Shown here in pieces: positions 5,620-24,187 of a stretch of DNA of 24,337 bases (position 1 is its first letter; every line of letters begins with the position of its first letter). The DNA lies in IMG/VR virus record IMGVR_UViG_3300025632_000074, positions 1 through 24,337 of that record. The stretch is one strand, 5' to 3'. The notes beneath the pieces were generated by a model, which was given only the letters and a program-made list of their open reading frames with translations, was not told the DNA's origin and made no database searches. Position numbers and translations under genes: made by a program. The DNA is from a virus.

Positions 5620-5973
5620 CTAACTGTTAGCTAAAAATAATTCATCTATAGATAGCACCGCTTCTAGCCTATTAGCAGTTTCTGCTGTAAGTTTAATAGC
5701 GTCTCCCTCATTCAAATTTAAATCTAAATCTAGAATAAGGTAGCTATGTGAAGCTATTGCAAATTCATTTACAATAGAGTATGTAGCACTCGCACTAGCA
5801 TCGGTTATCTGTACGGTAATGTCCGTTTGATGTCCTGATGTTTGGGCTATAACAATTTTTTTTAATACAGCATCGTGACCAGCAGGAACGGTGTAGACTG
5901 TTGTTTGATCTGTGCTGCTAAGAGCAACCCCTGCATTTCTTAGTCGAACTGGACGGGCTAGTGCGTTTGTCAA
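5620..5973 (-). CDS. Small beta-rich virion protein, TTG start
   Basis: A 117-residue protein with alternating beta strands: TTVYTVPAGHDAVLKKIVIAQ, DITVQITDASASATYSIV, SYLILDLDLNLNEGDAIKL and NRLEAVLSIDELFL. The phrase YTVPAG followed by a strand ending in a small jelly-roll-like sandwich is frequent in minor structural proteins of marine phages. The start is TTG (5973-5971), overlapping the TGA of the upstream secreted-protein gene as TTGA, and an AGGGG sequence sits about 8 bases upstream. No ATG lies near the N-terminus, so the TTG is the best choice. Lying just before the tail tubular A-like gene, it is likely a neck, tail or decoration component. The exact role is not known. Confidence 0.72.
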   Translation of the reverse strand: MTNALARPVRLRNAGVALSSTDQTTVYTVPAGHDAVLKKIVIAQTSGHQTDITVQITDASASATYSIVNEFAIASHSYLILDLDLNLNEGDAIKLTAETANRLEAVLSIDELFLANS

Positions 5974-6287
5974 GAGTCTATCCCCTTAGTTTTTTTTATA
6001 GCGGGTGCAAAATTAGTCCCAATAGAGGACACGCATTCAATATCAGGGTTAATGTCGGCTACGCCCGTTAACGTGTAGTTTCTAGTTTCAGGGTTTATAT
6101 ACATTGTAAAAGTTATGCTGTATTGAAAATCTCTAAAAGAAAATGCAGGATACTCCCCAAAACTTTCAGCTTGAGCTTTAATAGTACCTATAGAAAAACA
6201 AAGGTTAGAAGCCTCTTGCGATTGGCTTGGTTTTACCGCTATAAAAAACATTGCAAAAAAAAGCAACGCCGCCGAAATCCGCTTCAT
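5970..6287 (-). CDS. Small Sec-exported protein of unknown function
   Basis: A 105-residue protein with a clear signal peptide: positive MKR start, hydrophobic core ISAALLFFAMFFIAV (4-18), then KPSQSQ before a probable signal peptidase I site near residue 24. There is no lipobox cysteine. The mature part is about 80 residues with two cysteines (in NLCFSIG and IECVSSIG) that could form a disulfide, and beta-like strands (FQYSITFTMYINP, YTLTGVADI). It starts one base after the TGA of the oxygenase gene with GGGG upstream, and runs into the next virion gene by a TTGA overlap. A periplasmic protein inside a tail operon could modify the envelope, block superinfection or assist lysis. None of these is shown by the sequence. 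I do not recognise the family. Confidence 0.7.
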   Translation of the reverse strand: MKRISAALLFFAMFFIAVKPSQSQEASNLCFSIGTIKAQAESFGEYPAFSFRDFQYSITFTMYINPETRNYTLTGVADINPDIECVSSIGTNFAPAIKKTKGIDS

Positions 6288-6288
6288 A

Positions 6289-6954
6289 TCACATACCCCA
6301 AGCTTTCTTTAAATACATCTGAACAAGCGTTGATTTTGTAAACATGTCCTTCACTTGCGTTGACCTTGTAAACATATCTTTATTCTGTTTCATAAAATAT
6401 GTGTTTACCTCATACATATTTTGCAAAATAAAAGACTGTTCGTAAGATACATTAGAGGACATCCATCCAATTATGTTCTGTCTAAAACCTTCAGTGACCC
6501 TCTCTACTCCATGAGGGTATATGATAGGAAATATTACAGCTTCACCTGCCCCTAGCTTTTTACCTATCCTGCCTACGGAAGTATCTAAAATAAATTCTCC
6601 ACCTTCGTAATCGTCTGATAAATTTATGCTCCACCCATAGTCAAAGAATACATTTTTTGATTTAGGGTTAGCCTTAAAAGAATCTACGTGTAAATCGTAA
6701 TAGTCGTCTTTAAAATATTTGTTATAAAAGTTTACTGATACTCTAGTAGGGCAATACACGCTATCTATATAGTGAGTATCGTAAAGCCTGTCTGTAATGA
6801 GCTTTCTAACTTCGTCTGGAACGCTGTTAGACTCTTGATTGCTTTTTATGCTTTCTAAGTCAGCGGCAGTCTCTTTTCCGCTTTTGTACGTGTTACTATC
6901 TATTTTGTCCAAACAAAAATTTACTTCATCTTTAGTAAGTAGCTTGATAAACAT
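6289..6954 (-). CDS. 2-oxoglutarate/Fe(II)-dependent oxygenase
   Basis: A 221-residue protein with the metal and cosubstrate motif of the 2OG-Fe(II) oxygenase superfamily (prolyl 4-hydroxylase-like). Iron ligands are H89 and D91 in YDLHVDSF and H148 in YPHGVERV, and R158 in EGFRQNIIGW is the 2-oxoglutarate-binding arginine. The YEGGEFIL and GAGEAVIFP strands lie between them in the expected order. Such enzymes hydroxylate proteins, nucleic acid bases or small molecules, using 2-oxoglutarate, O2 and Fe(II) and releasing succinate and CO2. They are frequent in marine phages, with unknown substrates. The gene starts 35 bases beyond a hairpin behind the decoration gene and has a strong GGAGGT ribosome site. 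Its C-terminal tail carries a duplicated 10-residue unit (KDMFTRSTQV, KDMFTKSTLV). Confidence 0.88.
   Translation of the reverse strand: MFIKLLTKDEVNFCLDKIDSNTYKSGKETAADLESIKSNQESNSVPDEVRKLITDRLYDTHYIDSVYCPTRVSVNFYNKYFKDDYYDLHVDSFKANPKSKNVFFDYGWSINLSDDYEGGEFILDTSVGRIGKKLGAGEAVIFPIIYPHGVERVTEGFRQNIIGWMSSNVSYEQSFILQNMYEVNTYFMKQNKDMFTRSTQVKDMFTKSTLVQMYLKKAWGM
6327..6386 (-). repeat. 30-bp tandem duplication in the oxygenase C-terminus
   Basis: Two adjacent 30-base units (6327-6356 and 6357-6386) begin gcgttga and share tttgtaaacat or cttgtaaacat, with a few substitutions. In the encoded protein they give KDMFTRSTQV and KDMFTKSTLV. The duplication keeps the frame and lies after the catalytic core. 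Confidence 0.85.
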
Positions 6955-7527: not shown

Positions 7528-8502
7528 TTAGCTGTAATCTACAATGCCGAGGCAGAGAGCCTCTGGACGAATGACCTTACGGCCATAAACGTGCAGACCG
7601 CGAACCACATCCGAGAACGAATCGGGATCGCGAATAACTTCTGTCTTAGCAATTGAGTTGGCAGTCGCCATGCCGGAGATGTGACCAGCAAGAACAATGT
7701 TCTCACCAGAAGCAACACCGGAAAGCGATACCATGTCGGTCGTAGTCGTAGCATCCGCCGACTGACGGAGTGCATTTGACTTGTAGAGGTTGAAGCCCAT
7801 AATCTTCTGGTTCGTGACCAGACCATTACGGAGCGGGGAACTAGCGTCACCCGTTACCTGAACTTCAACAATCTTAGCGCCAGCGGCATACAAGTTCTGA
7901 TACACGCGGGGCGGTGCTACAAACCAACGGTTCTCTTCAGGAACGTCCTGCTCATCGAGCTTACGTGCCATAAGGGCCATTAGGTTAACAACATCGTCAC
8001 CAGCATCGGAACCAGCAACCGTAACTGGAGTACCTGAAGTACCAAGATTGGAATCGGTTTCAACCGTGCCAGAAGCACCCTTGATACCCGCATTGTCAAT
8101 CATGGACTGAAGTACGTTCTTGTCGTAGTTACGTTTCAGCGAAAACGCACCTGAAGAGGTGGCAAGCGCCTCAAAGTTCACATGCGACTGACGCTCTTCG
8201 ATGTCATCCACCTTAAACGCAAACGCCTGTGCCTGATCTACCGTCAACTGGATTTCGTCATCTGCCAAGTCCTGCGGCGTAACCACAGAGCCTCGCGAGT
8301 ATGCGGAAATCGTAACGGTAGGTTCTTTCATAATCCGAACCGTGTCACCAAAGTTCTCAATTTCTCCTGCGTAGTCAGTATTGGTAATGTCTTCGACTAC
8401 CGACGCACGGCGGAAAAACTTAAGAACCTTTTGGCTATAGATTTCGGCCTGAAAATTACCGGTAGGTAGATTACCATAACCGGCTGATACGGAAACAGCC
8501 AT
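7528..8502 (-). CDS. Major capsid protein
   Basis: A 324-residue protein directly after the scaffold gene. Its N-terminal part (GNFQAEIYSQKVLKFFRRAS, then GDTVRIMKEPTVTISAYSRG) and the following LTVDQAQAFAFKVDDIEERQS segment match the pattern of HK97-fold major capsid proteins of short-tailed marine phages. In that pattern an N-arm and long helix precede the E-loop and P-domain. RWFVAPPRVYQNL and GFNLYKSNALRQ are typical of the A-domain part, and the end (YGRKVIRPEALCLGIVDYS) also fits. There is an AAGGA ribosome site about 9 bases upstream. The codons are noticeably richer in C and G than in most genes of the window, as expected for the most abundant protein. No internal cleavage site is evident. 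Confidence 0.9.
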   Translation of the reverse strand: MAVSVSAGYGNLPTGNFQAEIYSQKVLKFFRRASVVEDITNTDYAGEIENFGDTVRIMKEPTVTISAYSRGSVVTPQDLADDEIQLTVDQAQAFAFKVDDIEERQSHVNFEALATSSGAFSLKRNYDKNVLQSMIDNAGIKGASGTVETDSNLGTSGTPVTVAGSDAGDDVVNLMALMARKLDEQDVPEENRWFVAPPRVYQNLYAAGAKIVEVQVTGDASSPLRNGLVTNQKIMGFNLYKSNALRQSADATTTTDMVSLSGVASGENIVLAGHISGMATANSIAKTEVIRDPDSFSDVVRGLHVYGRKVIRPEALCLGIVDYS

Positions 8503-8525: not shown

Positions 8526-9386
8526 CTATCTATTAACGATACGTCCCTCCGCTTGAGCCTGATCCAGTTCTGATTCAACTTTTTCAAATTCATGCGGTTT
8601 GAGTCTACGTATCTCTGAAGTAGTCCACACCTTTTTGTTTGCATTTGAGTCTGTAGCAACATTAATGCCTTTAGTTCTTGTTACGGCTTCTGCTGCTGCA
8701 GCCTGTTGTTTGCGAGGTCTGCCTACTTTTTTGTTTGAGCCAGTATCGGCCTTGTACAAGTCAAGAACGCGGGAAGCCCATTTAACATCTTCCTTGTTCT
8801 TCGTGATACCATCTGAAAGGCTAGGTGGCTGCTCCTGAAGCCAAGAGGCAAACTTTTCAGACTTTTTAATTTCTGAGAAGTCAGGATGCAGGGCCAGCAA
8901 TTGCTGATAAGCACTTTTAGCTTTTAGCTGCTCTTCCTTCTGAGAAAGATGCGAAACTTGTTCACGAAGTTCAGCAAGTTCTTTTTCAGCATTCTTAGCA
9001 GTAATTGCTTCAACTACATTATATACGTCAGGATAGTTTTCTTTAAAGTTCTCAATATTGGCGTCATATTCTGGCGCTTCTTGTTCTACGGGTTGAGAAA
9101 CAAGCTGTTCCTTCTCCTCTCTCCACTCATGGAGTTTGGAGTCGTAGTGCTTCTTTAAATCATCATAACGTTTTTTGTAATCATGCTCCTCCGTCTGCAC
9201 TTCAGAACTATTCTGAGAGGACTGAACGGAAATGGTTTCATCGTCAAACTGGTTAGTGTCTTCGGCGTCTTCCTCTAGGGTAGCTTCCGGGTCAACTACT
9301 TCATCCTCCTTGTACACATCAGATTTGTAGCTGCCTTTATAAGGGCCTAGTTTCTCATCTTCTTTAGCTTGTACTTCTTTAGTCAT
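8526..9386 (-). CDS. Capsid assembly scaffold protein
   Basis: A 286-residue, very acidic protein immediately upstream of the major capsid gene. It has a low-complexity acidic start (residues 30-60) and two predicted coiled-coil stretches (about 68-97, and 131-160 with KELAELREQVSHLSQKEEQL). A conserved-looking LLALHPDFSEIKKSEKFASWL follows at 163-183. Near residues 219-226 a KKVGRPRK segment resembles an AT-hook core. The C-terminal piece (WTTSEIRRLKPHEFEKVESEL, then AEGRIVNR) is typical of scaffold proteins of marine short-tailed phages, where the C-terminus binds the coat. The ATG has the strongest ribosome site in the window, AAGGAGG spaced 4 bases. It probably guides procapsid assembly and then leaves. 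Confidence 0.85.
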   Translation of the reverse strand: MTKEVQAKEDEKLGPYKGSYKSDVYKEDEVVDPEATLEEDAEDTNQFDDETISVQSSQNSSEVQTEEHDYKKRYDDLKKHYDSKLHEWREEKEQLVSQPVEQEAPEYDANIENFKENYPDVYNVVEAITAKNAEKELAELREQVSHLSQKEEQLKAKSAYQQLLALHPDFSEIKKSEKFASWLQEQPPSLSDGITKNKEDVKWASRVLDLYKADTGSNKKVGRPRKQQAAAAEAVTRTKGINVATDSNANKKVWTTSEIRRLKPHEFEKVESELDQAQAEGRIVNR

Positions 9387-11030: not shown

Positions 11031-11789
11031 TTATTTAGCCTTAATAACGTTTATAATCATTCCTGAGATGTCCACTTCCCACCACTTTTCACGGAGATTG
11101 CTTTTTGCTGGATTAGCGTGGTGATTGTTATGCCACCCCTCTCCCCAATTAATTAGAGACAACCATACGCAATTACATGAGTTATCTTTAATAGTGTGAT
11201 TTTTATAGCCCACATCAAGATGGTTTACGTAGTTTGTAAGCGCCTGTACTAACATTACTAAAATAGAGGGTATAATAAACATAAAATATAAGAGTTGAAA
11301 CCCCCCTAACAATAAAAGCAATCCAACATACGTTGTAATAATTAAAACCCAATATCTATTAGTGTATTTAATATAAGGATCGCGGGATAGTGGTAGTGCT
11401 TGTCTAACCATCTTCATTTCATTTAGCGAGTACCTTAAAAATAGCATCTTGATAAAACCCCGCGAAGGGTCGTGTGGATCGTCATCTTTGCTATCAGAAT
11501 GTTTGTGATGGATTCTATGTATTCCTGCCCAGCCTAATGAGCTTCCGGTGCCTGATAATAATGCAAGAGTAGAAAATAAGTATTTTATACTTCTGCTCTT
11601 AAATTTAAAACTGCTATGCGCCCAATACCTATGGTTAGTTACTACAATTCCAAGACAGTCATACAAAAAATACATAAGCAAACTTAAAAGTATGGCGGAA
11701 AATGTAAAATTAACAAAACTAAAAAGTAAAACTAGTGAAATTAAATTTATTATAAAAAGGTATCGTACTTTATTTAAAGATGCGCTCAT
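11031..11789 (-). CDS. Fatty-acid (acyl-lipid delta-9-type) desaturase
   Basis: A complete 252-residue membrane desaturase with all histidine boxes. H53 and H58 lie in HRYWAH, H91/H94/H95 in HRIHHKH, H220/H223/H224 in GEGWHNNHH, and H190 lies in YVNHLDVG. The spacing and the GWAGIHRIHHKHSD and GEGWHNNHHA phrases are those of the di-iron delta-9 acyl-CoA/acyl-lipid desaturases. Hydrophobic segments occur at 10-50, 68-85 and 145-185. The enzyme would insert a double bond into membrane acyl chains using O2 and an electron donor that is not encoded here. Length agrees with short bacterial and phage forms. The start overlaps the preceding gene by 20 bases and the stop is 2 bases before the next ATG. 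Base composition is AT-rich compared with its neighbours. Lipid desaturases are known auxiliary genes of cyanophages, but the host here is not established. Confidence 0.93.
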   Translation of the reverse strand: MSASLNKVRYLFIINLISLVLLFSFVNFTFSAILLSLLMYFLYDCLGIVVTNHRYWAHSSFKFKSRSIKYLFSTLALLSGTGSSLGWAGIHRIHHKHSDSKDDDPHDPSRGFIKMLFLRYSLNEMKMVRQALPLSRDPYIKYTNRYWVLIITTYVGLLLLLGGFQLLYFMFIIPSILVMLVQALTNYVNHLDVGYKNHTIKDNSCNCVWLSLINWGEGWHNNHHANPAKSNLREKWWEVDISGMIINVIKAK

Positions 11790-14914: not shown

Positions 14915-16802
14915 TTAGACCTCTTAATACCTCCGCAAAAATTTGTGCGTCATTAATGTCATTTACTAACAGATCAGGATCAATATCCTGTGCAATAGCT
15001 AGCTCTCTTACAAGGTTTGGAATCTTGATAAAGGGAGCAAGCATCGGATTAGCAACTGTTTGAAGCAGCGCAGTAAGTCTCTGACTACGTACTTCTTTCT
15101 GCATAACCGCTGAAGTGCCTTGAGGTTTAATCTCAAGATCGCCAACGATCTCTGGCCTCTCCTCATTGAACTGCATATTCCAGAAGAACATGCACTCTCC
15201 AAGAGGCTTAAGCAAAAAGTCATCAATGTTTTTAATAACAGTTTTAACACTAAGGTTAGCACCGCCCATCAACATACTAAGCCCTGCAGCAGTACGCCCC
15301 GTGCCTGAAACACCTGTCTGCCCATGCATAATACTAGGCAGACCTGTTTCTTCATCGGCTAACTGACGCGCAGCCTGATACATCTGGATGTTTTCACCAG
15401 CAGTGTTAGGAAATTTAACAGCGTTGATAGCCGTACCTGTAACACCAGACTGACGCCTAAATACTTTACCCGGATAGATATCATAGTTCTGACCGGGAAC
15501 CAAAGACGCTTCATCCACATCAAAGACTACATTACCTGCAAGTGCTAAGTTATCAATAGCCATACGAATATGACCATTCATAAGAAGCTGTGCATCTTCC
15601 ATGTTTTCTGGAATACCCACACCAAACAACTGGTAAGGATTAATCTCGTAGGGAGTAGCAAAGTATGGAATGCGATAAGGTACAAAAGGATTCATAACAA
15701 GGCGAAGTACGCGATTGCCACAAACCCAAACATTTACAGGAACTTCTGTAAGGTCATCCATTTCCATAGGAAGACCCATCTCCTGCACTAGGGCGTAATC
15801 TAAGTTACCCCAATATTCTAAAACTTCAAAACGCTCTGTGTCACTAATAGACTCAAGATTTTCGCTACGGATGGTATCTTCAAAATACTTTTCATCGTAG
15901 TTTGGACCCATATCCAAACAACCAGCAACAGCTTCAGGATCAAAGAAAGGCTTGTCCATAAGGTCACGCATCTGTGACCTGTTCAGCCTATGACGCTGTA
16001 TTACGTATGAGCAGTCTTCAATGCTAGTACCAGAAGGGTCTGGGTAAAAATTCCAACATGATACAGATTCAAGTCGAGGGACAAGCTTCTTAGAAGGGTT
16101 GTAGTTTTTGTCCGCATCCCACCTATGCAAAGTCTTAGTCTCATTTAACGGTCCCTTTATAATACCTGTACCAAGCAGAGCGCACTCAAACAAAGAATGC
16201 CGCAAAATATTAGGGGCATTGTTCTCATGCAACTGGTCATGGATTTCTTTTTCCATGAGTCGAGCAGCTTCTCTAGCAGGACTAATCTGAGGTTCACCCA
16301 TTCTGCTAGGCCCTTCCTGCAGATTAGCACCTTCGTACTTATCAGCAAGCCCTCCTAGCGGAGAGGCTTCCGTAGCTCCGGGTGGCAAATCTCTACCATC
16401 ACCGGGAAAGCCATAAGGGTTTTCCACAGGGGGAGGAGTTTCACCCTGACCAGATACATCTAAATGAGCGAACTCAGCAACGCCTTCTGGAACAGGGCTG
16501 GACTCTACTACTATGGGAAACTTCTTATTAGCAAATAGGACATCAATCATCTGCCCGTAAGAGGCAAGAACTTTAGTCTTGGTAATCTTAATAAAAACTT
16601 TACTATTCTCAGAATCTCTAAACTGAGTAGTAGAGTCGTAGATACCACGAAAGTTCTTATATGCTCTTAGCCAACGCTGTTCGTGTTGATAACGACCAGT
16701 TTCAGCCTCTTGAAATTTAGAATTTACAGTGCCAACTACACTAGTTGCTGCTTCATCTACAAGAGCTACCGCTGGAATGTCACCTAAAGGTGTATCGGGC
16801 AT
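14712..16802 (-). CDS. Portal protein
   Basis: A 696-residue portal of the short-tailed phage type. An N-terminal helical part (RYQHEQRWLRAYKNFRG, residues 37-53) leads to KVLASYGQMIDVLFANKKFPI. A disordered Pro/Gly loop follows (about 110-165). The core includes EKEIHDQLHENN, CALLGTGIIKGPL, FYPDPSGTSIEDCSYVIQRH and VCGNRVLRLVMNPF. Later segments are GVGIPENMEDAQLLMNGHIRM, HGQTGVSGTGRTAAGLSMLM and NIDDFLLKPLGECMF, which are strongly characteristic of this portal class. Twelve copies would form the vertex through which TerL drives DNA. The C-terminal 60-70 residues are low-complexity and are overlapped by another gene in a second frame. It lies 16 bases after the 72-residue gene. Confidence 0.92.
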   Translation of the reverse strand: MPDTPLGDIPAVALVDEAATSVVGTVNSKFQEAETGRYQHEQRWLRAYKNFRGIYDSTTQFRDSENSKVFIKITKTKVLASYGQMIDVLFANKKFPIVVESSPVPEGVAEFAHLDVSGQGETPPPVENPYGFPGDGRDLPPGATEASPLGGLADKYEGANLQEGPSRMGEPQISPAREAARLMEKEIHDQLHENNAPNILRHSLFECALLGTGIIKGPLNETKTLHRWDADKNYNPSKKLVPRLESVSCWNFYPDPSGTSIEDCSYVIQRHRLNRSQMRDLMDKPFFDPEAVAGCLDMGPNYDEKYFEDTIRSENLESISDTERFEVLEYWGNLDYALVQEMGLPMEMDDLTEVPVNVWVCGNRVLRLVMNPFVPYRIPYFATPYEINPYQLFGVGIPENMEDAQLLMNGHIRMAIDNLALAGNVVFDVDEASLVPGQNYDIYPGKVFRRQSGVTGTAINAVKFPNTAGENIQMYQAARQLADEETGLPSIMHGQTGVSGTGRTAAGLSMLMGGANLSVKTVIKNIDDFLLKPLGECMFFWNMQFNEERPEIVGDLEIKPQGTSAVMQKEVRSQRLTALLQTVANPMLAPFIKIPNLVRELAIAQDIDPDLLVNDINDAQIFAEVLRGLNAGQGNMQNPAAAGQQQGAMEQSGGLPSGPEGEVSGPAGGGTIGLRDTEAAGQGTGGGSPPIPEAAS
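14920..14925 (-). promoter_or_regulatory. Ribosome binding site (AAGAGG) inside the portal gene
   Basis: AAGAGG is followed by TCTAA and the ATG of the overprinted 79-residue gene. The portal itself needs no ribosome site here, so this is the main local evidence that the internal ATG is used. Confidence 0.6.
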
Positions 16803-16818
16803 AGCCTATTCCTAAGTT

Positions 16819-17037
16819 CTAGTAGTCTTTTTCGTCAGCCATACGAAAAACTGCCGGATCAACGCCATTGTCTGCCTTAGCTTTACGCGGCATATCTACC
16901 TGCAGAGCTTCGCGGTCAGTGGGACCAGCAATCATTGAGTCGTGAGCTTCCCGATACAGGGCCGCTTCAGGCGCATCACTAAGCTCGCCCTGTTTCTTCA
17001 TCATTCCCATGATGTATTCTTTACCGTATGTATACAT
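16819..17037 (-). CDS. Small hypothetical protein upstream of the portal
   Basis: A 72-residue protein starting MYTYGKEYIMGMMKKQ, with a middle LSDAPEAALYREAHDSMIAG and a charged end (MPRKAKADNGVDPAVFRMADEKDY). The ATG at 17037 has an AAGGAAA ribosome site at good spacing, so it is preferred over the internal ATG at codon 10. It lies 17 bases after the 508-residue gene and 16 bases before the portal gene, in line with a late gene of the same operon. There are no membrane segments or recognisable motifs. It may be a head-assembly or portal-associated protein; I do not recognise it. Confidence 0.72.
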   Translation of the reverse strand: MYTYGKEYIMGMMKKQGELSDAPEAALYREAHDSMIAGPTDREALQVDMPRKAKADNGVDPAVFRMADEKDY

Positions 17038-18583: not shown

Positions 18584-20293
18584 TTAATAACCAAAGGTAG
18601 AATCAAAAGGCTTAGGCTTTGCAGTTTTCATCTTGTTCATCATATTGTTAATTGTTAGATGACCCCGTGCGCGAGTCATGCACATGTACCGCAGAGCATC
18701 ATAGGCATGATCATCCGCTTTTGTATCTACATCTTCAGGATTAGTCTTAGATAGAGGAAGACCTGATAGAGTCCTGATAAGATGCGTACAGGTAGATAGT
18801 ATTTTTATTCTAGGCTGGTTTGAAACAGGGTCTATCTGTAACCTGCGGTGCATTTCCATCTTACCAGCTAATCTGTTCCTGTCAGAAGGTGTGAACCTTG
18901 CCCCACATCGTATAAGAGTTTCTGCAATTGATGGGCCGGTTCCTGTCCTATTCCAACAGGAAGCATCCAGCACTGAGTAATACATGCCGGGATCGTTTCC
19001 CTCTAATGAGGTAATAGTATGGGCTAGCGTCTCAGCAGTTTGACCACTGCCATAAAATTCACGGTATATCCAAAGGGTATCATCCCAATCAACAGCACCC
19101 CACAATACACAAGAGGGGGCTGCATAACCGTAGTCTGCTGCCCTAACACGTAGCCAGTTAGTAGGTAGTTGCACCTGAGATGCATCTACAACATGGACAT
19201 TACGTGAAAACTCTGGGAACGCCGCTCCCTCTGCGACATCCCAATCCCCTTCTAAAAGCCGTCTTCTTTCAACTTCTGGGAGCGACCTCAACATGGCTTC
19301 ATATTCACCAGTTTCTGCGAGGTAGGGGTTATCAGTCAGCCGCGCTGGAATAAACTTGCGAAGAAAGAGCGGTTGACCTGCCTTGCCGTTCGTTGCTGTA
19401 TCAGGCCACAAAAGAGCGTTGCCTGTATCCACATCAGTTGCTGCAAAGGGCGCATTAGCCGGTGCGGGGTCGATATACATCTTCTTGACCCACCAACCGC
19501 CTACCCCTCCGGGGTTTCCTGTGCAGCGCATATACGCATTGATCTCAGGGTCAGTTGTACGAAGTCTGGAACGCAAGTACTCCCACACGTAAGGTGTTGG
19601 GTAGTGCGTGATCTCATCAATACCAATCCAAGTAAAAGCTTGTCCTTGGTAGCGCGTTACGTCTTTGTCCTTGTCGAGGTAGGAGAACCATGCCGTAGCC
19701 CCAGAAGGGAACTGCCACATAGCTTTGGATTCTCTGAAAGTTGCACCCGGAAAAGCTTTTGGATATAGCTGCTTACTCTTGTCAACAAGTTCGGTAAGCT
19801 CGTCAAGTGTGCGCCTAATAATAAGAGCGCGATGATTGGGCCTATCACAGTAACGGAGCAAATCAGCAAGAAGAGCATAAGACTTGCCCCCGCCAGCAGC
19901 ACCGCCATAAAAGACATCCCTTTCAGGGCTTGCCAAAAAGTCAGTCTGTGGCCCTGAATTGGGCTTGAAGATAATGTCCGCTTCATCCTCAACTAGCTCC
20001 CTTACTTTTTTTGGTACGCTATCAAGTACGTTATCTTCAATTACTTTAGACCCTTTATCACTAAACAGGGCCTTTTCTACCTTCTTTATATTATTCTTTT
20101 TATTCTTAGCGTTTACCGCTTTCCTCTGGGCGTTCTTCTTTGCCTTTTCAGCCTTGCGTATAGCAGCCTGAGAGGCTCTCCTAGCCTTCTCACGGGCGGA
20201 TAGGTTGTAGCTACCCTTCTCACCCTCTGCTAGCCTTGGACGACCTCTAGAGCGTTTTACAGGCTCTTCTTTGACATTGGCCTTATCTGTCAT
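18584..20293 (-). CDS. terL: Large terminase subunit (TerL)
   Basis: A 569-residue packaging motor. The ATPase has a Walker A motif GGAAGGGKS (130-138), a Walker B motif FTWIGIDE (220-227) and a TGNPGG coupling motif (258-263). The RNase H-like nuclease has acidic residues D387 (RAADYGY), D443 (SVLDASC) and D527/D528 (KADDHAYDALRY). It cuts concatemeric DNA and pumps it through the portal. The first 100 residues are an unusual Lys/Arg-rich, probably helical or disordered extension. It carries an AT-hook-like SRGRPRL (15-21) and a run of Lys/Ala/Asn (about 45-72) that may bind DNA. The start ATG shares one base with the stop of the upstream gene (TAATG). The C-terminus is a short tail KPKPFDSTFGY. 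Confidence 0.96.
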   Translation of the reverse strand: MTDKANVKEEPVKRSRGRPRLAEGEKGSYNLSAREKARRASQAAIRKAEKAKKNAQRKAVNAKNKKNNIKKVEKALFSDKGSKVIEDNVLDSVPKKVRELVEDEADIIFKPNSGPQTDFLASPERDVFYGGAAGGGKSYALLADLLRYCDRPNHRALIIRRTLDELTELVDKSKQLYPKAFPGATFRESKAMWQFPSGATAWFSYLDKDKDVTRYQGQAFTWIGIDEITHYPTPYVWEYLRSRLRTTDPEINAYMRCTGNPGGVGGWWVKKMYIDPAPANAPFAATDVDTGNALLWPDTATNGKAGQPLFLRKFIPARLTDNPYLAETGEYEAMLRSLPEVERRRLLEGDWDVAEGAAFPEFSRNVHVVDASQVQLPTNWLRVRAADYGYAAPSCVLWGAVDWDDTLWIYREFYGSGQTAETLAHTITSLEGNDPGMYYSVLDASCWNRTGTGPSIAETLIRCGARFTPSDRNRLAGKMEMHRRLQIDPVSNQPRIKILSTCTHLIRTLSGLPLSKTNPEDVDTKADDHAYDALRYMCMTRARGHLTINNMMNKMKTAKPKPFDSTFGY

Positions 20294-20928
20294 TATTTTA
20301 GTCGAGGTTTCCTTGAAGCATTGGTGTATTTTTTAACGTGACCACCCTTTGCAAACTTTGCACTACCACGTACTCCTGCGTAGGCATTACCTGACCTGTC
20401 AACTCTACCTGAAGCGGACATATCAAAAGGCCCTGCCTTACCCAAGTTGCGCTGGGCTGAGATACTTCTAGAGTTCACATCAACTCTCGTATCAGGGTCT
20501 TCATAAAAAGCACTGGCAGTTTCTGGATTTTTAAAGTTAGGCATTTTAAAACCTGCCCTACCTCTTCCAACGGGGGCTGATACACTTCCTCCGGGGGTGC
20601 TAAAGCTACCCATAGCCCTAGCCTTTACTCCTGAAGGAAGAAGGTCAACATACTTTACAAGAGCATTAGCCATCTCGGAAGTAACTTCACTGTCCTTACC
20701 CTTAGCATACAGGTCGTAAGCTTTAGCTGCTACTGCTGCAGTAGCTGCAGCATCCTTAACCTTAATTTCTTTACGGCCCCGGCTTGAAGACATAGCAAGG
20801 TCTTCAGGACGAAAACTAAACAAAGTCTCATCTAAAAGCTGCTTACCTTGAGGAGATTTAGCAATGGCCGCTGCGGACTGCAGGGCAAACTCGGCTAATT
20901 GTTTTTTTGTAGGTCTATTATCCGCCAT
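20293..20928 (-). CDS. Hypothetical basic protein with Gly-Gly motif, between TerS and TerL
   Basis: I chose the ATG at 20928 (211 residues). A TTG three codons earlier is also open but has no better ribosome site. The N-terminal half is helical (KKQLAEFALQSAAAIAKSPQG, ATAAVAAKAYDLYAKG). The C-terminal half is Gly/Ser/Arg-rich with strand-like repeats (VDVNSRSISAQRNLG, DMSASGRVDRSGNAYAGVRG) and ends FAKGGHVKK...RKPRLK. The AKGG motif and the RKPR-x-K ending match those of other small proteins at the right of the window. It overlaps the terminase start by one base (TAATG). The family is unknown; a DNA-binding or virion protein is plausible. Confidence 0.72.
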   Translation of the reverse strand: MADNRPTKKQLAEFALQSAAAIAKSPQGKQLLDETLFSFRPEDLAMSSSRGRKEIKVKDAAATAAVAAKAYDLYAKGKDSEVTSEMANALVKYVDLLPSGVKARAMGSFSTPGGSVSAPVGRGRAGFKMPNFKNPETASAFYEDPDTRVDVNSRSISAQRNLGKAGPFDMSASGRVDRSGNAYAGVRGSAKFAKGGHVKKYTNASRKPRLK

Positions 20929-21026
20929 AAATTTCAATCCGTTTGTAATAAGTACCTATACCGCGTCTGTAGCAGAGGACACTACCCGGCATTTTAATTC
21001 TAGAAAGATAAACCCCTACACGTATC
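20929..21026 (-). other. Intergenic segment between TerS and the 211-residue gene
   Basis: About 98 bases without a supported gene, the longest gap in the window. I see no perfect hairpin, no long repeat and no convincing promoter boxes. It may hold a phage promoter that I cannot recognise. Confidence 0.4.
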
Positions 21027-21452
21027 TTAGTCATTGTTGATGATGATAGGCTCTTCCTGACCCGCTTTGGAAGGAAGAAGGACTACACCATGAATCGCAG
21101 TTACATTATGCTCAACAACATCATGTTTACCTACGCCTACTCTGTTTAGAATGGACTCCGCAGCCTTTATCTTAAGTTCAGCGCGAGGAGTAGTCCCGTC
21201 ATCATCCAGAGCATTTACAAGACCTGCCGCTGCTTTTACAGAGTTAGCGGCTAGCATGTTCTTAGCCCGTTCAATAATCTCATCTGCAAGAGAGTTCATA
21301 ACTGCCTTGCCAGTAGTCTCACAGTAACCAGCCACACGCAAAGCGGCAGCATTATTGCCACCGTTGTCCATAAGAGCATCCAAGTATGCAGACTGCATAT
21401 CGGTTAGCTCTCGTTTCTTCTTCTTAGGCTGGGCTAGTAAATTATTTACCAT
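21027..21452 (-). CDS. terS: Small terminase subunit (TerS)
   Basis: A 141-residue protein with an N-terminal helix-turn-helix-like part, LTDMQSAYLDALMDNGGNNAAALRVAGY, followed by a helical middle (AVMNSLADEIIERAKNMLAA, AELKIKAAESILNRVGVGKH) and a beta/acidic C-terminus (VTAIHGVVLLPSKAGQEEPI). The helix-turn-helix plus oligomerisation-helix layout and the length are those of small terminases. These recognise viral DNA and regulate TerL. It lies just upstream of TerL with one gene between them. Its ATG overlaps the previous gene's stop by one base (TAATG). Confidence 0.82.
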   Translation of the reverse strand: MVNNLLAQPKKKKRELTDMQSAYLDALMDNGGNNAAALRVAGYCETTGKAVMNSLADEIIERAKNMLAANSVKAAAGLVNALDDDGTTPRAELKIKAAESILNRVGVGKHDVVEHNVTAIHGVVLLPSKAGQEEPIIINND

Positions 21453-21907
21453 TAGTAGTTAACTTTACGAACTCCACCACCGCGAGAATACATCTTTGCC
21501 ACTTTGCTACCTGTAGCCATAGAGGGAGCTACCATGTTATCAGACCTATTCATGTCCATGAGACTTTTCTGAGGATTCTGCTGCATGGAGTTCTGGGATG
21601 TCATGCCCCCGTAGGCCATCTTTTTCTTGTCTTTACCGTACATCTTTTTTCCTTTTGCTATCGTTGCAACATTTGTGGGCTTGCCGCCTACTCCTTGAGG
21701 CTTTGCTCTCTTACGGGAGACTGCACTCTTCTTCTGTTCCGAGGTCATGGATTTAGCTTTAGCCCTTGGCACACACTTAGGGTAGCCCCTCTTGGAGTCT
21801 GAGGTAGAAGAGCGGCCACAGGCTTGAAATTTTCCACCCTTCTTCGGCGCTCCAATGTCTACCCAATCTCCTTTAGGGCCTTTGCCAAACCATTCCTTGA
21901 GGCTCAT
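21452..21907 (-). CDS. Small basic protein, second part of a split conserved domain
   Basis: I place the start at the ATG 21907-21905, which overlaps the upstream TGA as ATGA, giving MSLKEWFGKG and 151 residues. A longer reading from 21949 would run through the upstream gene and lacks support. The part EWFGKGPKGDWVDIGAPKKG, then QACGR, then RGYPKCVPRAKAKSMT and RAKPQGVGGKPTNVAT is a pattern I know from small proteins of marine phages and some algal viruses (probably Pfam DUF5872; to be checked). It has two cysteines that may bind metal. The rest is basic with a MAYGG and ends YSRGGGVRKVNY, carrying the Gly-Gly motif of this region. It may bind nucleic acid or sit in the virion; the function is not known. 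Confidence 0.78.
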   Translation of the reverse strand: MSLKEWFGKGPKGDWVDIGAPKKGGKFQACGRSSTSDSKRGYPKCVPRAKAKSMTSEQKKSAVSRKRAKPQGVGGKPTNVATIAKGKKMYGKDKKKMAYGGMTSQNSMQQNPQKSLMDMNRSDNMVAPSMATGSKVAKMYSRGGGVRKVNY

Positions 21908-22083
21908 TTGTAACCGCCACCACGCTTCTTGTATTCGCGGACTAACCAAGCGTTAGCATACGCAGAAGGGTAAACGTCAAACTTCTTCTTAGCTGCAGAC
22001 TTTACTCTTGAGTACAGGGCAGGGTTAGAGGGAGTAGGAGACTTGCTACTCTTCTTCTTTGCCTTTGCTTTTTTTGCTGCCAT
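21904..22083 (-). CDS. Small basic protein, first part of a split conserved domain
   Basis: Start chosen at ATG 22083, 4 bases after the upstream stop (59 residues, MAAKKAKAKKKSSK). A longer form begins with TTG at 22119 inside the previous gene and is less likely. The body NPALYSRVKSAAKKKFDVYPSAYANAWLVREYKKRGGGYK is a recognisable conserved unit. In related proteins I recall, it is followed directly by the EWF...DWVDIGAPK segment that here starts the next gene. The two genes join by ATGA, so they look like one domain split in two or translationally coupled. The Lys-rich head suggests nucleic-acid binding. Confidence 0.75.
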   Translation of the reverse strand: MAAKKAKAKKKSSKSPTPSNPALYSRVKSAAKKKFDVYPSAYANAWLVREYKKRGGGYK

Positions 22084-22087
22084 TGCG

Positions 22088-22390
22088 TCAGGCCTTCTTA
22101 TTGCCGCTTTTTTCTTCAAGAATTTTTACAAGCTTGGGAGGCAAACTTTTCCTCTGCGCTGCAGTCACAGGACCGCCCTTTGCCATCATCCTCATGCCCC
22201 GCGCCATCATGTCCGTATCACGGGCATTCATGCCACTCATTCCGCTCATTCCGCCACGGGCCATGCCCTTTGTGGTTTTACCACCTTTAGCCATGCCCTT
22301 GGTAGTTTTCTTTGCTGCGCCACCTTTAGCCATGTACTTGGTAGTCTTGCCACCTTTAGCCATGTATTTAGTTTTTTTCTTACCAGCCAT
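22088..22390 (-). CDS. Repetitive basic MAKGG-repeat protein
   Basis: A 100-residue protein whose first half is built from repeated units such as KTTKYMAKGG, AKKTTKGMAKGG and KTTKGMARGG. A Met/Gly/Ser run (MSGMSGMNARDTDMMARGMRMMAKGG) follows, then a short non-repetitive tail (AAQRKSLPPKLVKILEEKSG). There are five KGG/RGG blocks. It is strongly basic and probably unstructured. The repeat core resembles single Gly-Gly motifs in the neighbouring proteins, as if this gene were an expanded version. Its ATG is 5 bases after the stop of the 220-residue gene. The function is unknown; DNA condensation or capsid binding is conceivable. Confidence 0.75.
   Translation of the reverse strand: MAGKKKTKYMAKGGKTTKYMAKGGAAKKTTKGMAKGGKTTKGMARGGMSGMSGMNARDTDMMARGMRMMAKGGPVTAAQRKSLPPKLVKILEEKSGNKKA
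22251..22376 (-). repeat. Imperfect tandem repeats coding for MAKGG units
   Basis: The block ccacctttagccatg occurs at 22281, 22320 and 22350, that is, spaced 39 and 30 bases, with a diverged copy at about 22251 (ccacgggccatg). All copies keep the reading frame. They code for the MAKGG/MARGG units of the overlapping gene. Confidence 0.8.
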
Positions 22391-22395
22391 TGGTT

Positions 22396-23058
22396 CTAAT
22401 CCTTTGCGTATAAATTATCAAATGTAACACTAGGGTCCATGTAGCTATCATTAATCTCTGCGCTGTGTGTATGTTGACTAGGCACAAAGTCCGGTGGACC
22501 TTCTCCTGTAACCCACAAAGCAGGGTTAGTGACCCGTACCCTGTTATTAGGGAGAGCAACTATGTTACCTGTAAACTCTCCTGCATCTATTAGTTCCAGC
22601 ACATGAGATTGTTTGTGTTGTGCTGGATCGTCTGAAATGTGACTGTCGGTATAGTCCACAGTGAACATGTACCGACCTGTATAAAACTCTCCACCTATCT
22701 TACACATCCAAGGGCTAGAGGATACCCGGTCCATACTAAAGACTGCATGGTTTCTGGAGGAGCAATCCCAAGGTTGGGCAAAGTGAGTGGGCATCTTCTG
22801 AGGCCACTCTTCAAGAATAGTATCACCGATTAATGCTGTGATGGGCATTCTGGCCCACATAGCCCCGCCGTGAATGTTTTCTTCTTCTTCTTCTTCACAG
22901 CCAGTAAACACTACGTTAAAGCTAAGACATCTATCCGGTATTGTATTTACGGCTATGGCTAACGCATGTAGGTACTCACCTTCGTATTCTACATGGTTAT
23001 GTGTAAATTTACGCACCCAGCATTTAAAATGCGGGATGTTAGACGCTAAATAAGGCAT
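22396..23058 (-). CDS. Conserved-looking hypothetical protein (220 aa)
   Basis: A soluble 220-residue protein that resembles a hypothetical family I associate with marine phages, with phrases such as FAQPWDCSSRNHAVFSMDRVS, GEFYTGRYMFTVDYTD, DDPAQHKQSHVLELIDAG and IVALPNNRVRVTNPALW. It has several aromatic and His residues, and a Glu run (six GAA codons, 22879-22896) after a cysteine in FTGCEEEEEE. It ends in DPSVTFDNLYAKD. No signal peptide or membrane segment is seen. It lies among the small basic genes upstream of TerS, unlike them in size and composition. A role in head assembly or DNA packaging is possible from position only. Confidence 0.75.
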   Translation of the reverse strand: MPYLASNIPHFKCWVRKFTHNHVEYEGEYLHALAIAVNTIPDRCLSFNVVFTGCEEEEEENIHGGAMWARMPITALIGDTILEEWPQKMPTHFAQPWDCSSRNHAVFSMDRVSSSPWMCKIGGEFYTGRYMFTVDYTDSHISDDPAQHKQSHVLELIDAGEFTGNIVALPNNRVRVTNPALWVTGEGPPDFVPSQHTHSAEINDSYMDPSVTFDNLYAKD

Positions 23059-23091
23059 TATACTCTACTACTCTACTAAGGGGGGGTTAGG

Positions 23092-23493
23092 CTAGCACTT
23101 CCATCTTTTTCTAGCCTGACGCAGCCGGGAGTTAGGGTCTTTAGCCGCTTCTGGAAACTTCTTCATTTGTCCCGCAGAACGCGCACAATAAGACTTACGC
23201 CTCTTCGCTGCTTTACTTCCCTTTTTAACATCGCCAGTAACCGCACCCTTTAGCTTAGAGCCGGGGTTAGCCGCACGATAGGCCTTAATACCCTTCTCGG
23301 TCATTCCAGCGCCCTGTTTAGTAGGTCGCTTCATTCCTTTGCCTTTGGGCATTACATCCGGTTTACGAACTCCACCGCCCTTTGCATACTCCTTACGGCT
23401 AATCGCTGCCACCTTTTCAGATTGCCGCTTGTGCATCTGGGAGGCTTTGTTTAGCTCTTTGGAGATTTGCTGGAGTTGTTCTTTGGCTGGCAC
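23092..23493 (-). CDS. Small basic conserved protein, GTG start
   Basis: A 133-residue, Lys/Arg-rich protein. The start is GTG (23493-23491), one base after the previous stop, because no ATG lies near. After a helical head (QLQQISKELNKASQMHK) it has EYAKGGGVRKPDV, one of the Gly-Gly motifs. The C-terminal part MTEKGIKAYRAANPGSKLKGAVTG, KKGSKAAKRRKSYCARSAGQM and DPNSRLRQARKRWKC matches a pattern I know from small phage proteins (probably Pfam DUF6321; to be checked). The CAR and the terminal WKC cysteines could bind metal. It is probably a nucleic-acid-binding or structural protein, function unknown. Confidence 0.78.
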   Translation of the reverse strand: MPAKEQLQQISKELNKASQMHKRQSEKVAAISRKEYAKGGGVRKPDVMPKGKGMKRPTKQGAGMTEKGIKAYRAANPGSKLKGAVTGDVKKGSKAAKRRKSYCARSAGQMKKFPEAAKDPNSRLRQARKRWKC

Positions 23494-23494
23494 T

Positions 23495-23794
23495 TTATTC
23501 TACTGCTTCGGGTTTTTTGGCGGGAGCGGTTTTGGTGCGAGACACTGAATACTGTTTCATCTCACGCTGCCTTCTCTCACGGGGGCTTTCTCTTTTTGGC
23601 CCTTTGTATTCCGTAGCACCCGCCCCCGGCTGTAGACCCACTGTGTTGCGAATCTGCCCCATTTCAGATTGAAACTTTCTTTCCGCTGCTAAGTCTTTTC
23701 TAAATTTTTTTATTCCTGCGCTAGGCTTGGGTTGTTCAGGTTTGTTTGCTCTTTGCCTGTTATATTCAGCTATAGACATTCTTTTATTAGCCAT
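23495..23794 (-). CDS. Small basic hypothetical protein
   Basis: A 99-residue, charged protein with a polar start (MANKRMSIAEYNRQR), helical segments (GIKKFRKDLAAERKFQSEMGQI), an Arg/Glu patch (RESPRERRQREMKQY) and a Lys/Pro-rich tail (TKTAPAKKPEAVE). It has no cysteines or hydrophobic segment. The ATG (23794) follows an AAGGA ribosome site 8 bases upstream. It lies 15 bases after the upstream gene and one base before the next. It is likely partly disordered. I do not recognise it. Confidence 0.68.
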   Translation of the reverse strand: MANKRMSIAEYNRQRANKPEQPKPSAGIKKFRKDLAAERKFQSEMGQIRNTVGLQPGAGATEYKGPKRESPRERRQREMKQYSVSRTKTAPAKKPEAVE

Positions 23795-23809
23795 CCGGTT
23801 ATTCCTTCA

Positions 23810-24187
23810 TTACTTCATCCGGGGTTTGCGGATAGGTCCACCCATGTTGCGGTTCATGGCATAGATTTTACCGCCACGGGCTTTCTTTTGCATTTTTTGC
23901 ATCTCTCCCTCCTGTGATAAAGGAGTTTTTGCTTCGGGTAAACCCAGTGCATCTTCAACGAAATTTAATTCGTCTAGCAAACTATCTTTAGCTCTCAGAA
24001 CAGCTTTAGTATCACCTGAAGGCGGATTAACTAGATTACCATCTTTTTTAATAATTTTGTTTAATTTTGTAATTTCATTAAGAAGAAGACTTTTCTTAGC
24101 CGTATAGGAATCCTTTTTAGATTTAAAATCTTTTGCAGAAAGCTTGTCGTTTGCTTTATTAAAGCTGTCTAAAAATGTATTAGCCAT
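23810..24187 (-). CDS. Small helical protein with C-terminal Gly-Gly motif
   Basis: A 125-residue protein. The first 80 residues are helical and charged (FLDSFNKANDKLSAKDFKSKK, LLLNEITKLNKIIKKDG, VLRAKDSLLDELNFVEDALG). The end is KKARGGKIY...MGGPIRKPRMK, with the Gly-Gly motif twice and an RKPRMK C-terminus almost the same as that of the 211-residue protein next to TerL. The ATG overlaps the upstream TAA by one base and has a GGAG ribosome site about 8 bases ahead. It is possibly a coiled-coil adaptor with a short binding tail. The family is unknown. Confidence 0.72.
   Translation of the reverse strand: MANTFLDSFNKANDKLSAKDFKSKKDSYTAKKSLLLNEITKLNKIIKKDGNLVNPPSGDTKAVLRAKDSLLDELNFVEDALGLPEAKTPLSQEGEMQKMQKKARGGKIYAMNRNMGGPIRKPRMK

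Follow-up and report, generated by a model that had tools for sequence, protein, structure and literature searches.

Late proteins of an HMO-2011-type podovirus that are otherwise unrelated carry the same short, glycine-rich basic sequence at their C-termini, and its behavior in related phages strongly supports the view that it is a short linear motif common to unrelated phage proteins, presumably engaging one partner. This conclusion draws on the same terminal position, the lack of relationship between the protein bodies, the restriction to late genes, and endings that change in concert within a phage. In our proposal the motif acts as a docking tag at the protein terminus, sending late, accessory, mostly basic proteins to one destination, most likely the interior of the assembling virion head, and we put the chances that this reading is right at roughly even. 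The original prediction had offered a motif that binds one partner or, alternatively, a processing site behind GG; the former is well supported as a shared motif with a presumed partner, and the latter fares poorly.

The tag and the proteins that carry it

The window analyzed here, the 24,337-base IMG/VR virus record IMGVR_UViG_3300025632_000074, displays the late strand of the phage, with genes for terS, terL, portal, a probable scaffold, coat and tail proteins (Table 1). Its TerL, portal and coat proteins place it in the HMO-2011 type. TerL is 53.7% identical to that of HMO-2011 across 83% of the query, and the best matches in isolates (approximately 48-55% identity, 82-95% query coverage) include Puniceispirillum phage HMO-2011, Roseobacter CRP phages and the pelagiphages HTVC103P, HTVC104P and HTVC115P. 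Homologues of the backbone genes of the window, and of the HMO-2011 RNR and polymerase, occur in the same tag-bearing records; the polymerase gene lies outside the window and has a homologue in sister records. The N-terminus of TerL (near 20293) is a basic extension with an AT-hook-like RSRGRPR. Elsewhere in the window, a 252-aa protein (11031-11789) with several His-rich motifs resembles, by eye, a membrane fatty-acid desaturase, its sole family match being phrog_35201, and a 221-aa protein (6289-6954) matches the PHROG for 2OG-Fe(II) oxygenases.

The motif-bearing proteins lie where they had been placed, all on the minus strand, and the motif exceeds what composition would give: [YFMK][AS][KR]GG occurs 9 times in the 28 called window proteins against 0.23 expected from 2000 within-protein shuffles (maximum 3), 4 times against 0.18 when the repeat protein is left out, and [KR]GGx[VI][KR] occurs 3 times against 0.07. 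Plain [KR]GG, with the repeat protein set aside, is not enriched (8 versus 5.6, p=0.2). Since these patterns were chosen after inspection of the window, the independent test is provided by relatives.

Membership is narrower than first proposed. The 125-, 151- and 211-residue proteins carry the tag at the C-terminus and the 133-residue protein carries it internally, so that "mostly C-terminal" applies to three of these four proteins. The 100-residue protein, in which the motif has indeed been expanded into repeats, is related; arrays of the same kind in sister phages (KGGKNTKYMA...) end in AYAMGGG[VI]RKxKM. Two further proteins were dropped from the set. The KRGGGYK ending of the 59-residue protein, which matches DUF5872 (PF19197) above the Pfam cut-off, is the end of its DUF5872-type block, where isolates show YKAAGGGYK, and LKRGGKK in the 508-residue protein is a single internal match. 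The 59- and 151-residue genes (21452-22083) overlap by 4 bases and resemble two halves of a DUF5872-type protein, and phage HTVC023P has an identical split. The 133-residue protein scores 42.9 bits against DUF6321 (PF19846; cut-off 28.5). The tag is an element separate from both domains, being present also on proteins that lack them.

Table 1. Positions of tagged genes, their neighbors and other proteins discussed in the text
Feature	Record	Positions	Strand	Remarks
Major coat protein	window	7528..8502	-	context; alternative candidate docking partner
Probable scaffold, phrog_13678	window	8526..9386	-	placed before coat gene; net charge -17; candidate docking partner
Terminase large subunit, HMO-2011 type	window	18584..20293	-	context
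211-aa protein	window	20293..20928	-	between terS and terL; FAKGGHVKK 18 residues from end
C-terminal tag of 211-aa protein	window	20296..20355	-	last 20 residues, FAKGGHVKKYTNASRKPRLK
Terminase small subunit	window	21027..21452	-	homologue in 64 tag-bearing contigs
151-aa protein	window	21452..21907	-	DUF5872-type C-half (SLKEWFGKG...); end KMYSRGGGVRKVNY
C-terminal tag of 151-aa protein	window	21455..21490	-	YSRGGGVRKVNY, 10 residues from end
59-aa DUF5872 N-half protein	window	21904..22083	-	end KRGGGYK; cassette part, not counted as tag
100-aa protein	window	22088..22390	-	five KGG/RGG repeats; related, without final RK block
220-aa phrog_3704 protein ("ferredoxin")	window	22396..23058	-	cassette neighbor
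133-aa protein	window	23092..23493	-	internal tag copy YAKGGGVRKP at 23359-23388, then DUF6321 (residues 62-131)
125-aa protein	window	23810..24187	-	ending KARGGKIYAMNRNMGGPIRKPRMK; ARGGKIY 22 residues from end
C-terminal tag of 125-aa protein	window	23813..23884	-	longer-linker form
WNY-ended and HExxH protein	G006 (L210)	5798-6619
WNY-ended and HExxH protein	G016 (L229)	15067-16251
WNY-ended protein	G016 (L229)	16251-16904
WNY-ended protein	L190	550-1269
WNY-ended protein	L196	1620-1850
HExxH protein	L045	1185-2618
HExxH protein	G005 (L208)	32922-33638
HExxH protein	G005 (L208)	33631-34449

Conservation among relatives

Relatives were surveyed at 80 TerL-related loci, with 17 fuller records used for strand and position; gene calls came from a simple ORF caller, and the contigs are fragments and partly redundant. 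At these loci the 211-, 151-, 133- and 100-aa families carry the motif, members of the 151-aa family share the same terminal tag, and further unrelated proteins have the ending Y-A-[KR]-GGG-[VI]-R-K. The consensus is GG-x-[VI]-K-[KTN]-Y-A-[KR]-GGG-[VI]-R-K-[PAV], and the full HMO-2011-type tag, of about 20 residues, can be written GGx[VI]K(K)YA[KR]GGG[VI]RK-[PAV]x(2-6)-COOH. Searched as a DNA pattern in 2.9 million viral contigs of IMG/VR, the nine-residue core matched at least 119 stretches, compared with one for a codon-shuffled control. At the loci examined, 163 of 198 core matches lie 3-7 residues before the stop and 33 belong to the DUF6321 family, 88-90 residues from it. Among bacterial and archaeal genomes (257 billion bases) the same pattern gave 27 stretches, few of them near a stop and mostly in short frames, none of which we judge to be a tagged gene.

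After removal of near-duplicates there are 161 distinct tagged proteins, with as many as four on one contig, and they form 73 body clusters, an approximate figure as clustering was by single-linkage BLAST. Conservation extends beyond the residues that defined the search: of 58 clusters, 55 have K at -5, 41 have G at -9 and 34 have G at -8. Shuffling the C-termini gave a mean of 0.01 matches against 104 seen, in proteins preselected by their tail pattern, so chance composition does not account for the motif. Of 104 contigs with a C-terminal tag, 101 carry named HMO-2011-type backbone genes.

Nor is the motif missing from orthologues; no other part of the 211-aa family is as well conserved. In an alignment of 25 sequences encoded between terS and terL, every invariant column is a tag residue (K194, G195, G196, Y201, R206 and K207), and the bodies diverge to about 20% identity while the tag is conserved. 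A longer-linker form, GGxV-x-Y...RK[PV][KR], substitutes in some orthologues of this protein (FAKGGHVKQYSNAPRKPRLK beside FAKGGKVKQYAKGGGVRKPKLK). An AlphaFold2 model of the 211-aa protein, of low confidence (mean pLDDT 50.6), predicts a beta-meander at approximately residues 100-192 and a disordered tag and tail; compared with the folds in PDB and BFVD, this model had no hit at E<=0.001.

We found no mention of the tag strings as a phage motif, or of DUF6321, in the open-access literature searched. Tblastn searches of isolated phages with tag peptides produced a single weak match, low-complexity filtering probably masking the tags, and isolate searches limited by the same masking turned up no cultured member of the tagged clade.

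Other lineages have tags of their own. A sister clade uses GGM[VI]HRGR[KQ]A-x(n)-COOH, at the C-terminus in every read examined. A third tag, KGGxVRGxGxA... (searched as K-GG-x-V-[RK]-G-x-G-x-A), was found in at least 120 stretches against 6 for a reversed-order control, was C-terminal in 96 of 96 matches, and marks up to three proteins per contig. The one third-tag contig that was scanned has a terminase (phrog_38) and a capsid protein (phrog_371) both unlike those of the window, and the group shares with the window only a tail-fibre homologue, at 9 of 89 loci. In this unrelated lineage the tagged genes lie near capsid genes, not terminase, together with homologues of the DUF6321, phrog_3704 and DUF5872 proteins of the window, the phrog_3704 homologue adjoining DUF6321 and tagged genes; some of its DUF6321 and DUF5872 proteins carry an N-terminal copy, MRxYYK[KS]GGxV.

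Sister phages show a second shared C-terminal ending, WNY-COOH, on a number of distinct late proteins, and two of these proteins also have WNYGN near the N-terminus. HExxH metallopeptidase-like motifs (HELTH, HELRH, HELEH, HELQH) occur in tagged or WNY-ended proteins and have no significant Pfam match; when ten tagged or WNY-ended proteins were scanned against Pfam and PHROG, none could be assigned convincingly to a family.

Proposed virion loading and the alternatives

In the 17 fuller records (594 late and 249 early genes called), all 34 tags are on the late strand, and tagged genes occupy two sites, one around terS/terL and one at the end of the late operon. Turnover of the bodies is high: 56% have no homologue in other records, compared with 32% of similar-size late genes, a comparison set that includes uncertain ORFs. 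Many fast-changing bodies under one tag, late genes near head or packaging genes, and the likeness to T4 internal proteins lead us to favor virion loading. A component of head assembly, with scaffold, coat and portal as candidates, would bind the tag, and many different bodies would thereby be co-packaged and perhaps ejected with the DNA. We infer all three elements of this reading, namely loading into the virion, a docking partner and delivery into the host. The probable scaffold may be that partner and the coat protein is an alternative candidate; scaffold N-termini are acidic, which is weak evidence because many late proteins are.

The T4 capsid-targeting sequence is N-terminal and is removed by the gp21 prohead protease. 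T4 internal proteins are diverse and are encapsidated into the scaffolding core by a short conserved signal (PMC3012670). As in T4, one short signal sits on diverse, hyperplastic bodies, of which only the tag is kept across 73 clusters. Unlike the T4 signal, the tag described here is C-terminal and basic; we claim no sequence relation between the two, and encapsidation is in our case a presumption. A scan of ten tag-bearing records for Peptidase_S78 gave no hit. An N-terminal position of the T4 kind was not found in HMO-2011-type phages, and the N-terminal variant belongs to another lineage. Encapsulin shells have the HK97 phage capsid fold. Short C-terminal peptides direct the encapsulation of encapsulin cargo (PMC7925596). 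The C-terminal position is thus shared and the bodies would correspond to cargo; encapsulins, in contrast, are cellular compartments and use a different peptide.

A relative of one cassette protein has been detected in particles: ORF137 of Synechococcus phage S-CREM2 was found in CsCl-purified virions by 4 unique peptides at 4.1% coverage (PMC10665884). Its gene lies between terS and terL, and its C-terminal DUF6321 is 54% identical to the 133-aa protein of the window across 72 residues. We looked for the KGG tag in the ORF137 sequence and it is absent; given this and the low coverage, the observation supports virion association of the DUF6321 family and not of the tag, and ORF137 could be a co-purified minor protein.

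The strongest competing explanation, which we nevertheless consider unlikely, is that the tag is a nucleic-acid-binding tail, with basic, glycine-hinged ends tethering late proteins to phage DNA, so that heads are entered on the DNA and not by protein docking; in this scheme the KGG-repeat protein would be a small condensing protein. A tag as basic as this could do no more than bind DNA. It is rich in Lys/Arg and Gly, as are AT-hooks and basic DNA-binding tails, bodies are net positive in 82% of body clusters, the window cassette proteins are strongly basic, and in T4 the lysines of internal proteins contact DNA (PMC3012670). Several observations speak against it. The uncharged Y, A, GG and V/I are no less fixed than the basic residues, whereas the residue before GGG varies (K, R, Y, M, N); GGG[VI]RK[PAV] lacks the [KR]GRP core of AT-hooks; and some bodies are acidic. 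In addition, endings after RK on unrelated bodies are more alike within a contig than between contigs (identity 0.44 versus 0.20; 0/2000 permutations), and such clade-specific endings are better explained by a co-varying partner than by DNA.

It is also conceivable, with a probability we regard as small, that the tag serves not for encapsidation proper but for docking accessory proteins to some other late machine, with terminase, portal and the ejection apparatus as examples. Tagged genes do cluster around terS and terL, and a 323-aa tagged protein directly follows terL in one record (G011). Against this, G006 and G008-G010 have tagged genes at a second location, the distal end of the late operon, and the third-tag cassette adjoins capsid genes.

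Codon comparisons bear on the view that the tag is a mobile DNA module, a 3′-end fragment copied between genes by recombination without protein function. Within contigs, tag codons are identical at 64% of positions compared with 43% expected from codon usage (203 versus 136 of 318), and some pairs are identical throughout; tails in one genome thus partly share DNA, and some of the likeness within a phage reflects copying and not a co-evolving partner. Nonetheless, many pairs have identical peptides with synonymous differences, which amount to 36% of comparable codons, showing that what is preserved is the protein sequence. Among orthologues, too, invariant tag residues are encoded by varying codons, and the tag persists through the body divergence noted above, making a module of this kind very improbable.

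A translational or RNA signal at gene ends, such as a ribosome-binding site for the next gene or an arrest peptide, would suit the stop-proximal position and the median gap of 7 nt to the next called ORF; it is rendered highly implausible by the 56 of 161 tagged genes whose next same-strand ORF is >50 nt off (and 4 with none), by an SD-like core within the last ten codons in only 41/161, by the convergent early genes that follow the last tagged late-operon gene in G008-G010, and by related motifs at internal and N-terminal positions. Cleavage behind GG has the presence of GG in its favor and is hardly credible, as conservation is equally high after the GG ([VI]-R-K-x) and before it, the GG is C-terminal and not N-terminal as in double-glycine leader peptides, which end in GG and are cut by a C39 peptidase, and ten tag-bearing records gave no match to the two protease families searched, Peptidase_C39 and Peptidase_S78.

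Returning to virion loading, the tags of other lineages raise a broader and more tentative idea, to which we give somewhat less than an even chance: that they form an undescribed general class of phage terminal addressing tags with the core [YF]x[KRS]GGx[VI], present in several unrelated lineages in clade versions that would each be read by the phage's own head component, and letting phages swap freely among many packaged effectors. If the tag does load heads, a simple sequence rule would serve to recognize the proteins that an abundant group of marine phages packages and possibly injects. It would also suggest more than one origin for the strategy of T4, in which a single address serves many interchangeable internal proteins.
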